From positions 11,978,501-12,042,500 of the forward strand of contig OV121087.1 in NCBI GenBank assembly GCA_921293015.1: a stretch of 64,000 bases of DNA, written 5' to 3'. This DNA is from Phorcus lineatus (Eukaryota > Mollusca > Gastropoda > Trochida > Trochidae). The translations under genes were made by a program, and so were the position numbers. This document shows, one piece after another, positions 843 through 58,228 of this stretch. Below the pieces are notes generated by a model. It was not told the origin of the DNA. It did not search any database and saw nothing but the letters and a program-made list of their open reading frames with translations. Position 1 is the stretch's first letter. Each line of letters opens with the position of its first letter.

Positions 843-2545
843 TTACAACGGTTATTTTTTTAAATGATGTCATCGCCTCTTTAAATGAACATATATAGAG
901 TAGTTTGCAAAAACATCCTTATAGAAAGTTTTAAATTCTCTGCTCGTAAAGCAAATGCCATATGATTTTCATTGGTATATTGAGGAATATGATTAATTTT
1001 ATTGTCTCTTCTCAATGCAAATCTCCATTACTTTTAAGGGGTTTATCTGAATTATATTACTTGAATATAATTTCAATTGTCACTTGTCTAGTTGGCAAAT
1101 GCTTGATGATTACATTTATATTAAAATGGCTTCTGGCAAGAACAAAATTGATTAATCAGTTCAATTTAATATTAGACGGATATTAAAAAGGTTGGAAATA
1201 AGCAATAATAATATCATTGCTACAAACAATTAGCTTGATTTATTATTTGAAGTGTTACCATTCGATCATCAATAGTTAATTAGAAAACTAAAATCTCAAG
1301 CTAGTTTTAGGGTTGATACAATGTTGAACATTAAAAAGCATATTTTACGTTTGGAAATTGTGTCCTGAAATTTAATTCAACCAGCATAAAACAGCATCCC
1401 ACATTAAAATCGCCTTTTTAAAAGTGATCATGCTATTATTTCATTCTTGAAATGCTTCAAAGCAAAAAGAAAATTTTAAACACGATATAATTATTAACAC
1501 ATGAATATTTTTCAGAGAAGCAACATTTCAGAAAATCTTCAGTCACAAGATAAGTATATTATCATGCTTCAAAAATGACTTATTTTACACCTATTCCCAA
1601 GTTTAAAATATTTGTTTAAATTGTTAAATTGTTGCATTGTTCAAAAAGGAAAGGCAAACTGTACATACATTTCGGATATAAATGATTACTCGATTTACCT
1701 AATCGGTCAGACGGAATATTTGATTTAAAATAGTTGCCCATAATAAGTTACGATTCTTTAGTAGTACAGATGACAAGACAAGGAAATGATTAATGGTTGA
1801 ACATGTACATTCGTTGAGGAGTAGATGACCTGACAAGCAAGAAGTCCTCTTTTTATTTGAATCTATTTTAATGGCACTGTCACAGTAATGAATGGGAACT
1901 GTTTTAAAACCGAGACTCGAGTCTTTCCAATAACACTTTTTATGAAGAAACAATTACGACGTCTGAAAAGTTGGTTTTTAAATGATGCATGATATTGTCT
2001 TTTATCAAACATGCCGACAGATCATTTGCCTTTCTGAATTGTTGCTATCACAATAATGGACGGAAAGCACGACATTCATTGATGTCTGACAAACTGGTGT
2101 GTTCGAGGTCAGTTTCCATGTACACACTGTGCTCAATACATATCGCATGATACATCATTGTGATTTAGTTAAACATTGCATGTTATCCATCCAGGTTAAT
2201 TGTTACTAATTATATAAAAATGTATAAATGCTACCACGCAGAATAAACGCCTACACGATTGCTTTTTAGATGTAAAACTGAATAATACATCAAGTATAGT
2301 AAATGTTGGTCTCCAAGTAACATGAATGCTAAGACAAGTATTGATTGAAATCTATTATTGATCCATTGAAATCGAAGATAATCTTTAAACGTCAATTACG
2401 TTTATGAAGGTTCATTTCAAAGAAGAGATCATTCGGAATATTCAATTACCGTTCCAATTGTCGTATTTGTAAATAACATTATTGCAAGTAGAACGTTAGC
2501 ATTTGGTATGTAACAGCTGAGTGTGACCCAATACCGTGTCATAGA
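843..2545. other. Unassigned AT-rich sequence
   Basis: No convincing coding region, repeat or RNA gene was recognised. Short open frames here have no recognisable motifs and no splice-site support. Confidence 0.5.
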
Positions 2546-3132
2546 AATATTTATGGAAGGGGATGTGTGCCAAAAATGAAATCATGTAAACTCGTAATTC
2601 GCAAGTTGTAACATGTTGTTCTCAACCATGCAATTCTCGAAAAGACAAGTCCAAGTATCCAAACCTAACATTTCAATCCTGTAAAACTCAACTTGCTGTT
2701 CTCAACTTTACAAAGTTCAAATGTAATTCTAGAAATGTCAAAGTCGAAACTCATTTTTGTATTTCAAATAAGAGGGATATACACATTTAGCAATCCTACA
2801 AGTTACGTTTTACAATTGGTAAATGAAAAATGAAGTGTTGTAAAATCAGCCTTGCGAAACAGACTTTTGCATCTCGAGTTTTACATGACTTGCATGGTTA
2901 TGATTGCAATGTTCTGAAATACATCTGTACACGATTTCGCATTGACCATATTTGGAAGTTTAACGAAGACTGCCGATGATTTCCGAAGATAATCGGTATT
3001 TGACAACAACGAGACCTCCCTGATCCAAGCTCCATGCAACGCTGTGCAAGCTTTCCGGATAGCATTGAGTTGAGTCCACCGCAATGCGCGGAGCTTGCGC
3101 ATGCGACCTTCACCTTTTGTCAAGTTCTTAGT
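2546..3132 (+). repeat. Left terminal inverted repeat of the 2.8-kb element
   Basis: It matches 4766-5353 in reverse complement along its whole length. The inner boundary falls at CAAGTTCTTAGT (about 3121-3132), where the two arms stop matching. It contains short degenerate internal repeats of the type AACTTGTAGGATT and GAGTTTTACAGGATT. Confidence 0.85.
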
Positions 3133-4765
3133 CAATTATTGATCTAGATAAAAAAAATTCTACTGTTTTCGTAGGGGTTACACGAGGTTTATCTCACGAA
3201 AGAATATTATGAACTTTAATTCTGGGTTAGACTTTACGGGACACTTAATCTCTGCACAACTTACTGCATCGAGATGATTCACTATAAAAAATCTCGTTTT
3301 AGATATCAAGGTAGGGTTTCAAAAACTCACCAAATTACGAGACTGGTTTTAGAATAATAACGGCATACTTGACGCGCGAAGACAAATAACGGCAGAAAAA
3401 ATATATCTATATTGTATACCCACGTTACCCCTCAAACACGGGCATGTAATTCTTTCAAATTAACAGTTAGAAAAATAACTACGCGACGTAAAGTTAGGGG
3501 AAAGTTCCAAAATCATTGAAAAGAATTAATTTTTCATTCGGTCGTTTAACCAATGAATAGTACTCCGTTAAAAGAAACATTTATTTAATACCGTTTAAAG
3601 TCATGTTTTAAAGCTATGAACGTTCTAAACCAGACGTTTGTAAATAGTTTGAACAAATTTGATTGAAGAATATGTCAAAATCACATGACTGGCATATCAT
3701 GTGACATGTTATTTTTAACTCTCCGCCCGATCGACAGTTATTATAGGGTCGTCTTATAAGCGAACGGTCTATTAATTTTTGCCCGGTCTAGCAGGCCCCC
3801 AGAGAACGTCGGGTCATTGTTCGATACATATTTTGCCAAATTTTAAGTCGAAAAGCTCTTGCAAATTCAGATATCATCAACAATTTAAATCAAAATACCT
3901 TTGTAATCATCAAGATGTAAAACTTCTAACAATTATTTGAAATACAAGATTATGAATTTCCATACGTATAACTTAGGGGTGTACAACTTAGATTTCTCGC
4001 ATCGGAAAAATCAAGACAAGTGGTACAGCAACAAAAACACGACTATTGTATTGTAATTAATAGTTAATTATCAACGATTCACGTAGTGTATATCTTGAAT
4101 TTTATCCAAAGGTGTGTTTAATTACAAATGTTACCAACTGTGTTCACCAACTGTGTGCAAGTGCACAACTGAAGGGATTATTACGCAAGTGCGCCTTGAT
4201 GAGAACATAAAATCAAACTTCACATCAGTTAAGTAAATGTAAACCATTATTCTCCTAGTGATAAATCATAATTAGGTGATGTCATAAAATAATAATCATT
4301 TAAAATAAATTGCCAAGACGACACAAAAGTATGGTGCTGAAAGATTGTCTACAAAGTAATCATGCTTTAACAAAGGCATCGGAAACGCTCATATTCCATT
4401 GTTATACCTATTACTAAACAATAAACATGTGCTTTGAAAAAATGATACTTTTCAGTTTTGTAAAAAAAAAAATTATGCTACGAAATTGATTTTGAAGTAT
4501 TTTGAACTATTGAAATCGGCCCTCGAAAAGTTAATATGCGTTGACTACGTCACAAAATCTGAGGGGCTCGAAAAGAGGTGACGTCACAAAAATCGCGATC
4601 AAATGGACCTTTTCGAAGTTCGGAAATTTTCTTGCAATAAACACGGGTATATTTCATAGAATGACGTATTCAAGAATTTTTTTTTTGATTTTGGTCAGAT
4701 AAGAATTAATTGCAAATGATATTTGTTCTATTACAATTGTTGCTATTTGCCTTAGTACGCGAGTT

Positions 4766-5353
4766 ACTAAGAACTTTGACAACAGGTGAAGGTCGCATGC
4801 CCAAGCTCCGCGCATTGCGGTGGACTCAACTCAATGCTATCCGGAAAGCTTGCACAGCGTTGCATGGAGCTTGGATCAGGGAGGTCTCGTTGTTGTCAAA
4901 TACCGATCATCTTCGGAAATCATCGGCAGTCTTCGTTAAACTTCCAAATATGGTCAATGCGAAATCGTGTACAGATGTATTTCAGAACATTGCAATCATA
5001 ACCATGCAAGTCATGTAAAACTCGAGATGTAAAAGTCTGTTTCGCAAGGCTGATTTTACAACACTTCATTTTTCATTTACCAATTGTAAAACGTAACTTG
5101 TAGGATTGCTAAATGTGTATATCCCTTTTATTTGAAATACAAAAATGAGTTTCGACTTTGACATTTCTAGAATTACATTTGAACTTTGTAAAGTTGAGAA
5201 CAGCAAGTTGAGTTTTACAGGATTGAAATGTTAGGTTTGGATACTTGGACTTGTCTTTTCGAGAATTGCATGATTGAGAACAACATGTTACAACTTGCGA
5301 ATTACGAGTTTACAGGATTTCATTTTTGGCACACATCCCCTTCCATAAATATT
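4766..5353 (-). repeat. Right terminal inverted repeat of the 2.8-kb element
   Basis: Reverse complement of 2546-3132. The inner boundary is ACTAAGAACTT at about 4766. The outer end is CCTTCCATAAATATT. Confidence 0.85.
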
Positions 5354-14432: not shown

Positions 14433-17400
14433 GTAATAGCTTTTTTAAACACGCGATTTAATCTTTAAATGAAACAGAGTTAGTTAGTAAGTAACAATGA
14501 AGTGATGGAGTATGAACCATGAATTTAGAGAATTATATCGTTTAAATTCTATGTAAATGGAAAATTCAATAATCTACAATATTTCGTAGGTGCTTAAAAA
14601 AGGTTTATATGAATATGATATCAATTTGTAATACGTGTTTGTATAACATTGATAATTTGTTTCAGAGCTGATTCGGGTTTCTCTCGGCGTCAGTGTTGCT
14701 AGAGGGAAGCCAACGACACAGGGTACTACAAACAATGGATATATAAGTGCAAATGCTGTTGATGGGGTATACGAATCAAATGTTTACCAGAACGATTGCG
14801 CAGTTGTTCGGACATGGGACATGTATTGGACAGTGGATCTGCAGGGGATGTACACCATTAGCAAGTTGGATATTTACAACAGACAAGACGACCAAGGTAA
14901 AAACAAAGTCATAAATTTTCATGATCACTCATTATAAAAACAATAATTCTCTGATGCAATTTTCCCAGTGTGAACCGGAGCGGGCAATCTGTGTGGGTGC
15001 TTGTGAATATAGATATCAATGAGAAATATACGAAGCTCCAGAAGGGACATGGTAAAAAAAAATTATTATTACGTACGTACGTAATATTATCACGTACGTA
15101 CGTGATAATATTACGTACGTACGTAGTAAAGTAACACGTACGTACGCGTTATTATTACGTACGTACGTAGTACAATACCACGTACGTACGTAATTATTAC
15201 GTACGTACGTAATAACTAAATTTGAATGTTATAAGCTTAGGAGCTGTCGATAGAAAGCGCTAGTCAGCAGAAACTTATTTGAGTAAACTCAGCTCTAGCT
15301 GTCATGGATTCAGAAAATGTATATTTTGATTGATAATTGAGAGGTCAGATAAGAAATAACATAAACATTCACCACACAGCGTGTGTAGCAAGTGACAAAC
15401 ACAAACCATGTGGTAGGTAAATGTTGAACACAGCCCCACTAAGCTGTAATAAACATTTAATTTCTTATCTTGCAACCTCATTAGAAGGCGATTGAGTAGC
15501 AGTAATCTTTTTGCAAAACCCAAAAGTAGTCTATCTACAAGAAATAGAGCGTGGCTCGGATTAACTTTTTTGAGTTATCTCCCGTTGTACGGTTATTGCA
15601 CTTCAAGACGTAAAGAATGTTCATGAGACAGACATTGGACATCTATAAACAAGGGCATCTTATTTTCGTCAGCAAACAGTATACAACAAGAATCTTTAGT
15701 GAAAGTCATACAAACTCAAGCTAGTAACTAGCCTTCTAAGCGGTCATGGGCAAGAATTGATGCATCGACAATTCTTGAATTGCCGGCTACGTTAACAAAA
15801 TGTCGCCTAAAATAAATTATGTCTAATCAGCTATGTAATCACTTGCTAATATTTCTTTCTTTAAAATACTTCTGGCCTAAAAGTAATTTTTTTTAAAAGA
15901 CGTTTACTAACAAAATAAAAATATCTATTGAAACACTCACTTTGTGAAATGTCCAATAGGAAAATAACATATACCGTAGATCCTTGAATAATTAACAAGC
16001 GCTTATTAATTTCAACCACCGATTTGACTTTTAAGAGGCAGGCAATTATTCTTTTCGAAGCCATAATATTTGTTTCTATGTTAAAAAATGAAACAAAACC
16101 ATCATCATCGTGAATTTTGTATTGAAACACTGAAATAGACTCTCTTACCGTTTTCAAAATATGCAAATATTATTTAAAAAAACCAGAAACCTTAGAAAAA
16201 GATTATATTCAAAATGTTGTTGACAATGCTCAAGCCAACCCAACAAGGCAAGGCAGGCGATTATTCATTTTAACGAGACCTAAGCCCCGGCCTATACTGA
16301 AAGCAGGCGATTATTAACGACAGGCGATTATTCAAGGGTTTACGCTATGTCGTAATTGAAGAACCTGCTACGTTGACTGATCGCCATCTATAATGAGTGT
16401 GTGCATTTGTCGGTAACTTGCTAAAGATTACATTACTCTAATTAAAGACCGAAGAAATAAAATTAAATTAGATATACTTTCCTAAGATTATGCTCCTTAT
16501 CATATCACCTTACAAGCATTTGCAACAGCATTTGTTAAAATATGGCCTCTAAATAACGCAAAGGACCTTCGTTTTTCATCACCATATCATATTTTTGTAT
16601 AGAGGCATTGCATTTTTTTATATTGACTTTAGCAGAGAAATATAGAGCAAAATGAAGTGATTAGCGCATAAATATCATAAGCTTTCAGTAAAAACTAGAA
16701 TTTGTATAGATAAGTATATTTTGATTTGTTCGAAAATGACCCATTTAAATTAACCTCACGTTGTGAAATCAAAAAGAAAAAATATTTTTTCGCCAGGGGA
16801 TAACAAATATATTCACATTCGAGCAACAGTAGTCAGTCAAACTGTCATATCCAAGGAAGGAAACTCTTCATTTAAAAGAAACTATATTTATATTTCGTAT
16901 AGTATGTCCTCAAGGATGATAAGTAAAAAAACGGGTTTATCTTTAAAACAAAACATCATTTAGACAGATATGATACAGTCAAATATTTTATGATACAACA
17001 CATATTGTAAATTTATTTGTTTGCATCACACTGTAAGTGAAAATTTAAGTTTAACTATGAGTTTACTTTGAGTGTTGCTGAAAAATTAGCTTATTTAAGA
17101 GCACATGTAATTACATAAGCTTCCAGAAAAATACTTATCAAATTATGATTTGACTAAAGCAACTATTCTAACCATAATTAAACGTCGAATGTTCGACATT
17201 TGTTTCTACAAAAAAAGGAAACTGTCAACTGTCAAGTCCACATAAAATTACGACAAAATTTGTAATGGTGGTGATTTCCTCACAAAATGACTATTGTGAA
17301 TTCTTGTGTCAAAACTTTAATACGAGAAAAGATGAGTACATTGTATAATACATTGAAATCAATAAACAATTTAACAAATTAAATTGGATTTCCCTTAACC

Positions 17401-19066
17401 TAAATTAACAAAGTATTAATCATGTGGAGAAAGGAGAAAGCTGCCGGTATTCGACTGTTTTGTTGAGATTATTATCTTCACTTTCCATATCACAATTTAC
17501 GCATTTTCAAGTCGTATTACAATTCAAAAGATTCGACAAAGCATCTTTCCAGGGTCCCAGAACAGTTTGTCCATCACTAGACAAACGCCCATCACCCATT
17601 TTAACTTCAAACGGAATCTTCTCATTTCTGCTATCAGTTACATAAACTTTCTCGATACTATTCTATAAAAAAAATCTTTAGGTTCAGCTGAAGTTTTTTT
17701 TAGATTTGTGCAATAGCCTTTCTGTCATCTGAATGCTTACGTCGATACAGACGTATTCAAAAATTTAAAAAATGCGTTTCAGATGTCCTTTGCTTACTAC
17801 TATCCGGTGTTTTGCAACTAGTAAATAAAGCATTTCAGTCTGGTTAAAACCCAGATCGAAGTAGAGTCGAACAAGTATGTCCCCCTCCATGTTTAGATGT
17901 ACTTCCTCCTTACATGCTAAAGTATCACGTACGTACGTGTTATTTTCACGTACGTACGTATTAGTTTACTACGTACGTACGTATTAGCTTACTACGTACG
18001 TACGTGTTATCATTACGTACGTACGTGATATTTATTACGTACGTACGTGATGATATCACGTACGTACGTAATAATAACACGTACGTACGTAAAAAAAATA
18101 TTTTTTTACCATGTCCCTTCTGGAGCTTCGTAGAAATACGATTTTATTATGCCTGAAAGCGATAGAACTCTGTTATCTACTATTCATTGTAACAACCCAT
18201 AATCGTTTCAAAGTTATTTGGACAAGCTCCACAACAACTATGAGGTCTTACCGTTTATGCTAAGTCACCAATGAATAATGCTTGATAACAATATAAGAAT
18301 CCTGGCCAGAATGTCGGAATTTTAAAATAAAGTAATTGCAATTTCAATTACATTTTTCCATCCTGCTAACTTAATATAAACCAACAAAGAAAATGTATGG
18401 CATACCAACCCTGTGTTTTGCTTCGTGTTTAGGAAACCTTGACAACGTTGTGGTTGAAGTATTCCTTGGAGACCCACAATTGTGTCCAAACTTCGGCGTC
18501 CTTTGTGGACGTAACCCTGGACCTTCTGGAGACTTGGTGACAATCTACTGCCCCAACAATACACTTGCCAGGTTTGTCAGACTGAGTGGTAAGGCATACA
18601 TGAGTCTCTGCGAAGTGGACGTGTTTGGGGAAATTGTCAAAGGTAAGAATGACAAAATAAAATGAGATGAATGCAATTTATTTCAGCTTATTTGGTTTAC
18701 AATGGAAGAAAAGCGCGCTGTCCGGCTCTCATTTATTCACATTTTACTGATCCTTCGTTCCTTCGAATTCCTTGAACGTGATTTCTCTATTCATCTACAA
18801 TACGTGTCATTTCTGTTACAGACTGCAATCCTCTCTCGAAATACGGGTTACAAAAGCTGCCTGGAGTGATACTCAATTCATCAAAGTCATTCCTTGGCAC
18901 AGCCCGAAGTCCAGTCGACTGCCTCGCTTTGTGCAAAGAACGGGACAGTTTCTGCCACACCATCAACTTCGACGTCCTCAACGGTACTTGTTTCACCACT
19001 CGCCAACCGGTTGGGAAAAACGTCTATGGTGAAATTGCAAACTGGAACCTGTATTACAGATGCTGA
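14399..19066 (+). CDS. Secreted fucolectin-domain plus PAN/apple-domain protein, four exons
   Basis: Exons are 14399-14432, 14666-14896, 18433-18642 and 18822-19066, giving 720 bases and 239 residues. All donors are GT, all acceptors AG, and all three introns are phase 1, the usual pattern for shuffled extracellular modules. The product starts with a hydrophobic signal peptide (MELCCLLMTFLELIRVSLG). Next comes an FTP/F5-8C-like domain (about 20-157) with SVARGKPTTQ, ANAVDG, YWTVDLQ, ISKLDIYNRQD and ARFVRLSG. A six-cysteine PAN domain (159-239) ends at YYRC. Fucolectins bind sugars in haemolymph or mucus. Here the usual second arginine and the cysteine pair after NRxD are replaced, and the loop histidine is not evident, so fucose binding is doubtful. 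Intron 2 is enlarged by a 3.1-kb transposon. The start codon is chosen because it gives the signal peptide and an in-phase first exon. Confidence 0.87.
14666..14896 (+). CDS. Lectin gene exon 2: N-terminal part of the FTP domain
   Basis: The acceptor is TTTGTTTCAG and the donor GGTAAAAAC. It encodes the end of the signal peptide and the first half of the lectin fold, ending at IYNRQDDQ. In eel-type fucolectins the loop after NRxD carries the second sugar-binding arginine. That arginine is absent here. Confidence 0.85.
15029..15213 (+). repeat. Left inverted end with seven ACGTACGTACGT boxes
   Basis: A 30-base terminal repeat is followed by seven 12-bp palindromes, mean spacing about 21 bp, separated by AT-rich linkers. 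One box (15136) ends in C instead of T. Confidence 0.9.
15971..16348. mobile_element. Small inverted-repeat element nested in the 3.1-kb element
   Basis: The left end ATACCGTAGATCCTTGAAT and the right end TTCAAGGGTTTACGCTAT are imperfect inverted copies about 20 bases long. Near the right end GGCGATTATT recurs three times (16257-16340), with GGCAATTATT near the left. No coding capacity is seen. I could not define a target-site duplication. Confidence 0.5.
17425..17665 (-). mobile_element. LINE-like ORF2 linker fragment
   Basis: The minus strand is open over about 60 codons, with IPFEVKMGDGRLSSDG and then VLGPWKDALSNLLN. This resembles the segment between endonuclease and reverse transcriptase of many LINEs (a dG...VL..W...F..LLN pattern). 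A stop follows soon after. It is probably a degraded insertion inside the 3.1-kb element, or sequence that element picked up. Confidence 0.45.
17927..18132 (-). repeat. Right inverted end with eight ACGTACGTACGT boxes
   Basis: Mirror image of the left end. Eight exact 12-bp palindromes with start-to-start distances of 21, 23, 23, 21, 22, 21 and 21 are followed by the terminal repeat ending CTTCGTA. Confidence 0.9.
18433..18642 (+). CDS. Lectin gene exon 3: C-terminal part of the FTP domain
   Basis: The acceptor is CTTCGTGTTTAG and the donor AGGTAAGAA. It encodes NVVVEVFLGDPQLCPNFG through LARFVRLSG and LCEVDVFG, the last two being the standard closing strands of FTP domains. Confidence 0.87.
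18822..19066 (+). CDS. Lectin gene exon 4: PAN/apple domain and stop
   Basis: The acceptor is TTTCTGTTACAG. The 81 residues contain six cysteines (NPLSKYG after the first, DCLALCKERDSFCH, GTCFT, YYRC), the PAN/apple pattern used for protein or sugar binding. The stop TGA is at 19064-19066. Confidence 0.87.
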
Positions 19067-34940: not shown

Positions 34941-35812
34941 ATCTCCCGCCCAACGTAGTTGGCGGGGGATATTGAAATGGTCTCCGTCCGTCCGTTCGTC
35001 CGTCCGTCCCGATAATGTTTCCGGAGCACAACTCCAAAACTGTGAGACCTAACTCGACGAAACTTGGTATGTTTAACGGGCATCATGCGGAGATGTGCCT
35101 TTTGGGGTTTTCAACTTCTTTGCATCTTTATTTTAACCCGTTTCCATGGAAACGTAACATAGGATTTCGTTTCCGGACCACAACTCTAAAACTGTGAGAC
35201 CTAGCTCGACGAAACTTGGTATGTGCAACGGGCATCATGCGGAGATGTGCCTTTTGGGGTTTTCAACTTCTTTGCATTTTTATTTTTACCCGTTTCCATG
35301 GAAACGTAACATAGGATTTTGTTTCCGGAGCACAACTCCAAAATGGTGAGACCTATCTCGACTAAACTTGGTATTTGCAACGGGCATCATGCGGAGATGT
35401 GCCTTTTGGGGTTTTCAATTTCTTTGCATTTTTATTTTTACCCGTTTCCATGGAAACGTAACATTGGATTTCGTTTCCGGACCACAACTCCAAAACTGTG
35501 AGACCTAGCTCGACGAAACTTGGTATGTGTAACGGGCATTACGGGCATTGATTGTTCAATGTTAAACCTTCGTCCGTCCGTTCGTCCGTTCGTCCGTCCG
35601 TTCGTCCGTCCGTCCCGATAACATCATGCGGAGATGTGCCTTTTGGGGTTTCAACTTCTTTGCATTTTTATTTTTACCCGTTTCCATGGAAACGTAACAT
35701 TGGATTTCGTTTCCGGACCACAACTCCAAAACTGTGAGACCTAGCTCGACGAAACTTGGTATGTGTAACGGGCATTACGGGCATTGATTGTTCAATGTTA
35801 AACGGCATTTAC
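34941..35812 (+). repeat. Tandem array of 152-bp units, each with a GTTTCCATGGAAAC palindrome
   Basis: The array opens with a hairpin (TCCCGCCCAAC/GTTGGCGGGGGA, 34943-34969) and a (CCGT)n/(TCGT)n tract. Units follow with ACAACTCCAAAACTGTGAGACC, CTCGACGAAACTTGGTATG, GGGCATCATGCGGAGATGTG and TTTTGGGGTTTTCAACTTC. The palindrome GTTTCCATGGAAAC lies at 35140-35153, 35292-35305, 35444-35457 and 35680-35693. The first two intervals are exactly 152 bp. The last, 236 bp, contains a second (TTCGTCCG)n tract plus a repeated CGGGCATTGATTGTTCAATG segment (35544 and 35780). Short open frames in the units share a frame only because the units repeat. Confidence 0.88.
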
Positions 35813-57303: not shown

Positions 57304-58228
57304 ATGAATAATATAAAGCCAACGGCCAATGGTTTTAGCTTTGGGAACAAGTTCAACAAGTGTTTGCCACTAAAATGGCAATGTCCCCCGCCGTTATTGC
57401 ATGAAAAATGTATTACACTGTGGTCAAAGTGTCGTGGTGACCTTGAAAATGAGGTCAAGGTCATCAATGTCAACGTAGTCAAATGTCGTGGTGACCTTGA
57501 AAATGAGGTCAAGGTCATCAAAGTCGACTGGCGTCAGAGTCTTCCGCCATTGAAAGCTGTCAACAAATATGAACACTCTAGGTGCACGTAAACAATGTAT
57601 TAGAAATTGGTCAAAGAGTTGTGGTGACCTTGAAAATGACGTCAAGGTCACCAAAGTCAATTGGCGTCTGAGTCTTCCTCCATTGAAAGCTGTGGTCAAA
57701 TATGAACACTCTAGGTGCTAAACTTCACGAGTTATCGCGTTAACAATAATTTCAGACAGACGTAGTGTCGTGGTGACCTTGAAAATGACGTGAAGGTCAC
57801 CAAAGTGAATTGGCGTCTGAGTCTTCCTCCATTGAAAGCTGTCATCAAATATAAACACTCTAGGTGCTAAGCTTCACAAGTTTGTCAAGGTTACCAAAGT
57901 CGACTGGCGTCTGAGCCTTCCTCCATTGAAAGCTGTCACCAAATATGAACATTCTAGGTGCTAAGCTTCATGAGTTATCGCGTTAACAAGAATCCGGACG
58001 TACGTAGTGTCGTGGTGACCTTGAAAATGACGTCAAGGTCACCAAAGTCGACTGGCGTCTGAGTCTTCCTACATTGAAAGCTGTCACCAAATATGAACAC
58101 TCTAGGTGCTAAGCTTTATGAGTTATCGCGTTAACAAGAATCCGGACGTACGTACGGACGTACAGACGTACGGACGTACGGACAGACGCCGCTGAATTCA
58201 TAGTCCCCCGTTCCGCGTTGCGGCACTG
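57304..58228. repeat. Tandem array with everted TCAAGGTCA half-sites
   Basis: Units of about 120-150 bp, plus one 54-bp short unit, repeat GTGGTGACCTTGAAAATGA, GGTCACCAAAGTC, TGAGTCTTCCTCCATTGAAA and GAACACTCTAGGTGCTAAGC. TGACCTTGA, an 8-bp spacer and TCAAGGTCA occur at 57438-57463, 57492-57517, 57625-57650 and 58016-58041. Degenerate versions are at 57774-57799 and near 57885. The array starts near GGCAATGTCCCCCGCCGTTA and ends in ACGTACG-rich sequence and GCCGCTGAATTCATAGTCCC, like the single unit at 22255-22550. Confidence 0.88.

Follow-up and report, generated by a model that had tools for sequence, protein, structure and literature searches.

The IS3EU DNA transposons are described as having TA..TA termini, target-site duplications that are usually 6 bp long and a DDD/E transposase (PMC10045372; this and the other papers are cited here from the parts of their text that were available), and the fungal members end in TAYGG..CCRTA (PMC12730594). 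The superfamily is already named and little studied, and none of the titles listed for it deals with how an IS3EU transposase recognises its ends. Here we describe an element from a stretch of 64,000 nucleotides of the gastropod Phorcus lineatus (hereafter, the window), whose two ends carry arrays of a 12-bp palindrome, ACGTACGTACGT, referred to below as boxes. From the length of the duplication, the ends and a Pfam match, we assign the element to a multi-copy IS3EU family, called family A here, of which it is a non-autonomous copy decayed by deletion. A preliminary description of the window had not recognised the family and had put it forward as a candidate for something undescribed; the TA..TA termini and 6-bp duplications place the family in the named superfamily instead, and a transposase remnant on the minus strand had been missed. 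The element and its parts are located in the window as follows.

15029..18132, minus strand (direction in which the transposase remnant reads): non-autonomous, internally decayed IS3EU element, 3,104 bp
15023..15028, no strand: target-site duplication, left copy, GAAATA
18133..18138, no strand: target-site duplication, right copy, GAAATA
15029..15060, plus strand: left terminal inverted repeat (TIR), starting TACGAAGCTCCAGAAGGGACATGG, matching the right end at all 32 bases
18101..18132, minus strand: right TIR
15071..15210, no strand: left array, seven boxes ACGTACGTACGT, the fourth with one mismatch, steps 21, 21, 23, 21, 23 and 19 bp
17927..18090, no strand: right array, eight boxes ACGTACGTACGT, steps from the end inward 21, 21, 22, 21, 23, 23 and 21 bp, just upstream of the transposase remnant
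17768..17890, minus strand: transposase N-terminus remnant, beginning MEGDILVRLYFDLGFNQTEMLYLLVAKHRIVV and ended by an in-frame stop, identified by a genome search with an N-terminal peptide from another copy (E = 2.1e-5)

The preliminary description had reported exact inverted termini, a perfect GAAATA duplication, and seven left and eight right boxes at steps of 19-23 bp, and all of these were recovered. The 32 bases at 15029-15060, starting TACGAAGCTCCAGAAGGGACATGGTAAAAAAA, are the reverse complement of 18101-18132. Left boxes start at 15071, 15092, 15113, 15136 (box 4, which reads ACGTACGTACGC), 15157, 15180 and 15199, and right boxes at 17927, 17948, 17971, 17994, 18015, 18037, 18058 and 18079. 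When up to two mismatches were allowed, ACGTACGTACGT was matched 26 times in the window, as compared to a mean of 1.24 and a largest value of 7 in dinucleotide shuffles of the whole window, which rules out a chance origin of the boxes. Sixteen of these matches are in the two arrays (the 15 boxes and one overlapping match) and 10 are elsewhere, seven of the latter at 57994-58181. The transposase remnant (C12:11996268-11996390) lies 36 bp inside the innermost right box, with an overlapping match that extends to window position 17667. Since the N-terminal peptide of another family A copy, L026, matches the element at 17768-17890, the element is a decayed derivative that has retained the first part of the transposase gene only and has lost the catalytic core.

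The frame of L026, which we presumed to resemble the start of an IS3EU transposase, had prompted the peptide search against the genome; this returned 148 matches, some of them being two pieces of one place, with the window element among them. The preliminary description had suggested looking for a longer relative encoding a transposase between the same ends, and such a copy was found on C7 at about 6918553-6924364 (L057 and L016, approximately 5.8 kb). It has the same ends, with one change in the left TIR, boxes at both ends, the duplication CTAAAA on both sides (read by eye) and, between the ends, the decayed sequence of a transposase, with a match of its core to Pfam rva_4 (8.5e-12). Moreover, in L059 the TIR and two boxes occur along with a transposase piece (7.5e-9), and L058 holds a transposase piece (4.6e-13) and one box, no TIR having been found there. 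The open transposase frames of two sister families, B and C, match rva_4 at 2.2e-29 and 4.5e-29, respectively; they are 60% identical to each other and, as judged by simple motif position, have D, D and E spaced by gaps of 58 and then 40 residues. Family A therefore presents the features by which IS3EU is recognised: TA..TA termini, a 6-bp duplication and an IS3/IS481-like DDD/E transposase, here decayed, between the ends. The termini TACGAAGC..GCTTCGTA are found in the window element and in most tabulated copies; L009 and L019 show small changes at the right end, and L057 at the left.

Other superfamilies were considered. Elements of the hAT type make 8-bp duplications and encode a hAT transposase, and were rejected on account of the 6-bp duplication and the rva_4 integrase-core transposase observed here. 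Dada elements have 6-7 bp duplications and a Dada transposase; the duplication length alone would fit, but the rva_4 match speaks against Dada membership, which is unlikely. IS481EU requires TNT..AYA or TGT..ACA termini and duplications of about 4, 15 or 25 bp (PMC10045372), and was set aside given the TAC..GTA termini and 6-bp duplications found. A search of the sequences of solved structures with the family B transposase gave two matches, with E values of 0.1 and 0.57, neither of them named as a transposase, and a scan of viral contigs for the transposase and both box patterns gave no match.

We then focused on the family A copies in the host genome (958 Mb, 74 contigs), the one genome in which all family comparisons were made. 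A comparison with the element's left end gave 243 first-look candidates; scoring of 40 of them yielded 81 matching alignments, and copy number is known from partial counts such as this. Twenty left-end places were examined in detail and, after removal of four nested or duplicate rows, 16 independent insertions with both ends remained, the window element included. The divergence and step counts accordingly omit L026 (two nested readings) as well as L019 and L025, but include L020; the duplication table omits L013 and L016, for which one end lay outside the sequence first examined. A perfect 6-bp duplication was detected by script in 13 of the 16 insertions; all 13 sequences are different, and none extends to 7 bp. 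In L009, the duplication GTCAAC can be read by eye on both sides, with a small indel beside it in the right end, and in L014 and L017 the flanks agree at five of the six bases. L025 shows the same perfect duplication as L020, and none was found in L019 and L026. When aligned in pairs, the bodies of the elements share 86-99% identity. The pair formed by the window element and L009 (98%) occupies different sites and has different duplications, and such close pairs indicate that the 3.1-kb form itself has moved. In addition, six more family A loci were chosen from the peptide-match list, and each of them (6/6) shows the TIR and boxes a short way upstream of what is left of the gene.

Some further observations were made on these copies. 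L019, L020 and L025 (C41, about 22.83-22.92 Mb) are family A elements of 5.1-5.3 kb with a common left flank, and for that reason they are probably one insertion copied by segmental duplication. Beside the family A left end of L013, positions 2365-4947 hold an 861-aa frame that by eye resembles a non-LTR retrotransposon endonuclease and reverse transcriptase. The L026 element also contains, at about 3573-4730, a sequence repeated in tandem roughly every 145 bp, which shows up as recurring frames of 69 aa.

The boxes are a constrained and regularly spaced feature of the family A ends. Across the 16 copies (32 arms, with 5-8 boxes found per arm), 162 of 173 box steps are within 19-23 bp, with a mean step of 21.7 bp when steps under 30 are taken. 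Boxes differ from the consensus at 1.1% of bases, as compared to 7.1% for the spacers of the gene-distal arm and 4.4% for those of the gene-proximal arm, a contrast that is somewhat inflated, since the boxes anchor the alignment and the copies were detected through their similarity to a box-holding end. The terminal 24 bases show 0.5-1.3% differences. Among 250 ACGT runs, counted in all 20 rows with duplicate copies included, 214 have three units, 30 have two and six have four. As a control, tandem units of 15-30 bp were collected from the window and the loci examined to that point: in 31 of 61 distinct units, all 31 being these arrays, a palindrome 12 bp long or longer is present, and in the remaining 30, three of them being decayed family A arrays and 27 unrelated, palindromes do not exceed 8 bp. 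Plain microsatellite growth was rejected on the three-unit runs, the box conservation and this control. Overall, the checks that the preliminary description had proposed came out in its favour: there are other copies with the same ends, with a constant duplication length and a box spacing near 21 bp, and the element is a transposable element.

Families B-F were found by transposase similarity, as distant peptide matches, and not by their boxes; their ends were read afterwards. Right ends are known for families A, C and D, while families B, E and F were read from one end.

Family B (L049, L055, L056): end TACGGAAGCCAAATAGGGCCAAC, palindrome TTGAAATTTCAA
Family C (L050, L054): end TACGGTGGCATATTAGGGCCATCTG, palindrome TTGAAATTTCAA, steps mostly 20-22 bp
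Family D (L060): end TATGGAAGCGCATTGCTGCCAGCAG, palindrome ATCTAATTAGAT, period 21 bp, some gaps of 36 and 61 bp
Family E (L061): end TATGGAAGCTTAATAGGGCCAGG, six decayed boxes with consensus TGGAAATTTCCA, 21-22 bp apart
Family F (L064): end TACGGAACCGTAGAGGGGACATTG, three boxes TCGTGGCCACGA at 21 bp, the third with one mismatch

Thus, six families share one layout, 12-bp palindromes about every 21 bp, built on five different palindromes. The distance from the terminus to the first box is 42, 50, 41, 44, 51 and 51 bp in families A to F, respectively. Families B-F begin TAYGG and family A begins TACGA; an ungapped alignment of the terminal 32 bases of all six ends has seven columns that do not vary. 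The family B array in L049 comprises 18 boxes, 12 of them exact, at exactly 21 bp, and the similarity of L049 to L055 and L056 starts exactly at the family B end. The family D end region gave 353 genome alignments, many per place since the query includes the array, and this array also contains an internal duplication with a 143-bp period. One miniature element was read in each of families C and D: that in L050 (family C) is 383 bp long, has both ends and is flanked by a perfect ATAAAG duplication, and that in L079 (family D) is 338 bp long with a perfect TGAAAC duplication. Both carry arrays in their two halves, which indicates that the arrays travel with the ends and not with the gene.

Additional repeats were noted in these families. 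Downstream of the transposase of family B, at 4571-5242 of L049 and in the counterparts of this region in L055 and L056, lies another tandem array, which has a 20-bp period and contains no palindromes. Genome-wide, many short elements are ended by family D sequence at both sides, and clusters such as C37:25060708-25061417 contain several array blocks.

The occurrence of arrays on both ends, and in miniatures lacking a gene, points to a role in cis in mobilisation, and the finding of sister families with other palindromes in the same layout suggests a common way of gripping the ends. We infer that the boxes are sites for the transposase itself, whose binding, dimerisation and synapsis in IS3EU are predictions. 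As a whole, the data are probably best explained by family A being an IS3EU family whose transposase dimers bind family-specific palindromes to build an end complex. The N-terminal helix-turn-helix-like region of the transposase would bind each 12-bp palindrome as a dimer, and dimers lined up at intervals of about two helical turns, facing roughly the same side of the helix, would assemble into a multi-dimer complex at each end. This complex would pair both element ends and bring the catalytic core to the TA at the terminus, which lies 41-51 bp outside the first box; there the DDE core would cut and insert with a 6-bp stagger. With a palindrome of its own, each IS3EU family would mobilise mainly its own derivatives, including copies without the enzyme gene. 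The preliminary description had already suggested a dimeric binder, and this proposal is strengthened by the different palindromes of the same length and spacing in the sister families. More tentatively, and with chances that we put slightly below even, end complexes on 12-bp palindrome arrays at two-turn spacing could be a property of the whole IS3EU superfamily, the palindrome co-evolving with the N-terminal domain of the transposase while its length, spacing and distance to the end stay fixed.

Several observations weigh against this explanation, in addition to the inflated box-spacer contrast. The helix-turn-helix assignment is weak, with Pfam matches at E values of 0.013-0.12, those of the family A frame of L032 also being weak, and the Pfam search with the L026 N-terminal frame gave no match. 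The placement of the boxes on one helix face, as earlier proposed, stands in part: the fit is good between neighbouring boxes, but with a mean step of 21.7 bp the phase drifts, and coherence over the whole family A array peaks near 10.75-11 bp per turn instead of 10.5, so that a single face holds between neighbours more than across the array. The family E array is decayed and has no exact palindrome, TGGAAATTTCCA having been read from the repeat consensus. Moreover, arrays were present in all five family B and C loci read, while among ten flanks at other distant matches four had arrays (L060, L061 and L064 of families D, E and F, and L066, another family A copy), L065 had a single exact box, and L062, L063, L067, L068 and L069 had none. 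In these last five the transposase match begins at residue 31 or later, and therefore the true gene start may be missing; L062, however, possesses an open frame, with a different N-terminal region, and still lacks an array. The layout is thus widespread among IS3EU in this genome and not established as universal. The evidence also comes from one genome.

Three other explanations were weighed against transposase binding. The boxes could be sites for a host DNA-binding protein, either a transcription factor or a chromatin protein, serving expression or targeting, with the transposase touching the terminal repeats alone. The nGAAnnTTCn contained in TTGAAATTTCAA resembles a heat-shock element, ACGT cores are common in transcription-factor sites, and the right array of the window is directly upstream of the transposase remnant. 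Nevertheless, a single host factor would not account for five palindromes that agree in length and spacing across six families of one genome, nor does this role sit well with arrays at both ends and in the two gene-less miniatures, and we consider it improbable. Only marginally less favoured is the possibility that the boxes are indeed transposase sites, mainly regulatory ones, forming an inhibitory array that represses or titrates the transposase instead of building a productive end complex: arrays adjoin the transposase start in families A-E, and piggyBat ends hold inhibitory subterminal sequences (PMC11707139), but the two miniatures read, which keep their arrays as both ends do, would gain nothing from self-repression, and the conservation of boxes in defective family A copies points to a cis role in mobilisation. 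Least probable of all, the arrays could be neutral tandem repeats born of slippage or unequal exchange, with palindromes that are incidental or promote growth as cruciforms, as the variable number of boxes per arm, the six four-unit ACGT runs (some slippage) and the 143-bp duplication in family D would allow, but against which stand the prevalence of exactly three ACGT units, the higher conservation of boxes than of the spacers between them, the spacing of about 21 bp kept in six families and the 27 other tandem units of the same DNA with no palindrome above 8 bp.

The surroundings of the element were also inspected. An exon-like frame on the plus strand at 14656-14937 matches F5/8 type C (E = 3.2e-5, below the Pfam curated cut-off), and another at 18782-19066, also on the plus strand, matches the PAN domain (E = 5.6e-5, just above the curated cut-off); as these frames flank the element, it may have inserted in an intron of a lectin-like gene. 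Elsewhere in the window, a 152-bp tandem repeat (3.4 copies, 93% matches) lies at 35017-35539, and nested tandem repeats of 242, 148 and 94 bp at 57641-58183 end in a ACGGACGT microsatellite, the source of the weak box matches around 58150.

Regarding the literature, the terms 'subterminal' and 'palindrom' are absent from the available parts of PMC10045372 and PMC10853768 (Styx), and in that of PMC12730594 'subterminal' is absent and the sole 'palindrom' concerns another matter. A study of oyster satellites matched two of them to IS3EU, with nothing on arrays in IS3EU ends in its available text (PMC8268682). A literature search for ACGTACGTACGT together with transposon found no paper, and one for TTGAAATTTCAA found papers, none on transposons by title. 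As far as seen, the array architecture of IS3EU ends has no description in the literature; Repbase entries and the GingerRoot paper could contain one. Six families in one genome, with a constant geometry (12-bp palindrome, period of about 21 bp, first box 41-51 bp in) and a changed palindrome, make end recognition directly testable. Arrays would also offer a simple means of detecting defective non-coding IS3EU elements and of assigning them to the enzyme that mobilises them and, if the superfamily-wide proposal is true, they would constitute a natural series for a transposase recognition code.

Among known systems, the TnsB protein of Tn7 and MuA of phage Mu are integrase-related DDE transposases that bind several sites of about two turns near the ends; these sites are directional, not palindromic, and the systems are bacterial. 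Hermes and other hAT elements make 8-bp duplications, and piggyBac and piggyBat use TTAA targets. Hermes ends carry many short subterminal repeats bound by the N-terminal domain of a multimeric transposase, but these are AAGT motifs, asymmetric between the ends and bound by BED zinc fingers (PMC10368747). In the IS607 family, TnpA forms multi-dimer end complexes on phased subterminal motifs; it is, however, a serine transposase, working without terminal inverted repeats or duplications, and 'palindrom' is absent from the available part of that paper (PMC6188088). The piggyBac and piggyBat ends have few palindromes (in piggyBat, three imperfect ones on the left and none on the right) and no 21-bp array, but resemble the present case in that each subterminal palindrome is bound by two domains of a transposase dimer, and in that two transposases use unrelated palindromes (PMC11707139). 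It is with IS3EU, together with GingerRoot, that the families described here share TA..TA ends, 6-bp duplications and an integrase-core DDD/E transposase, as well as, in families B-F, the TAYGG start (PMC10045372, PMC12730594).

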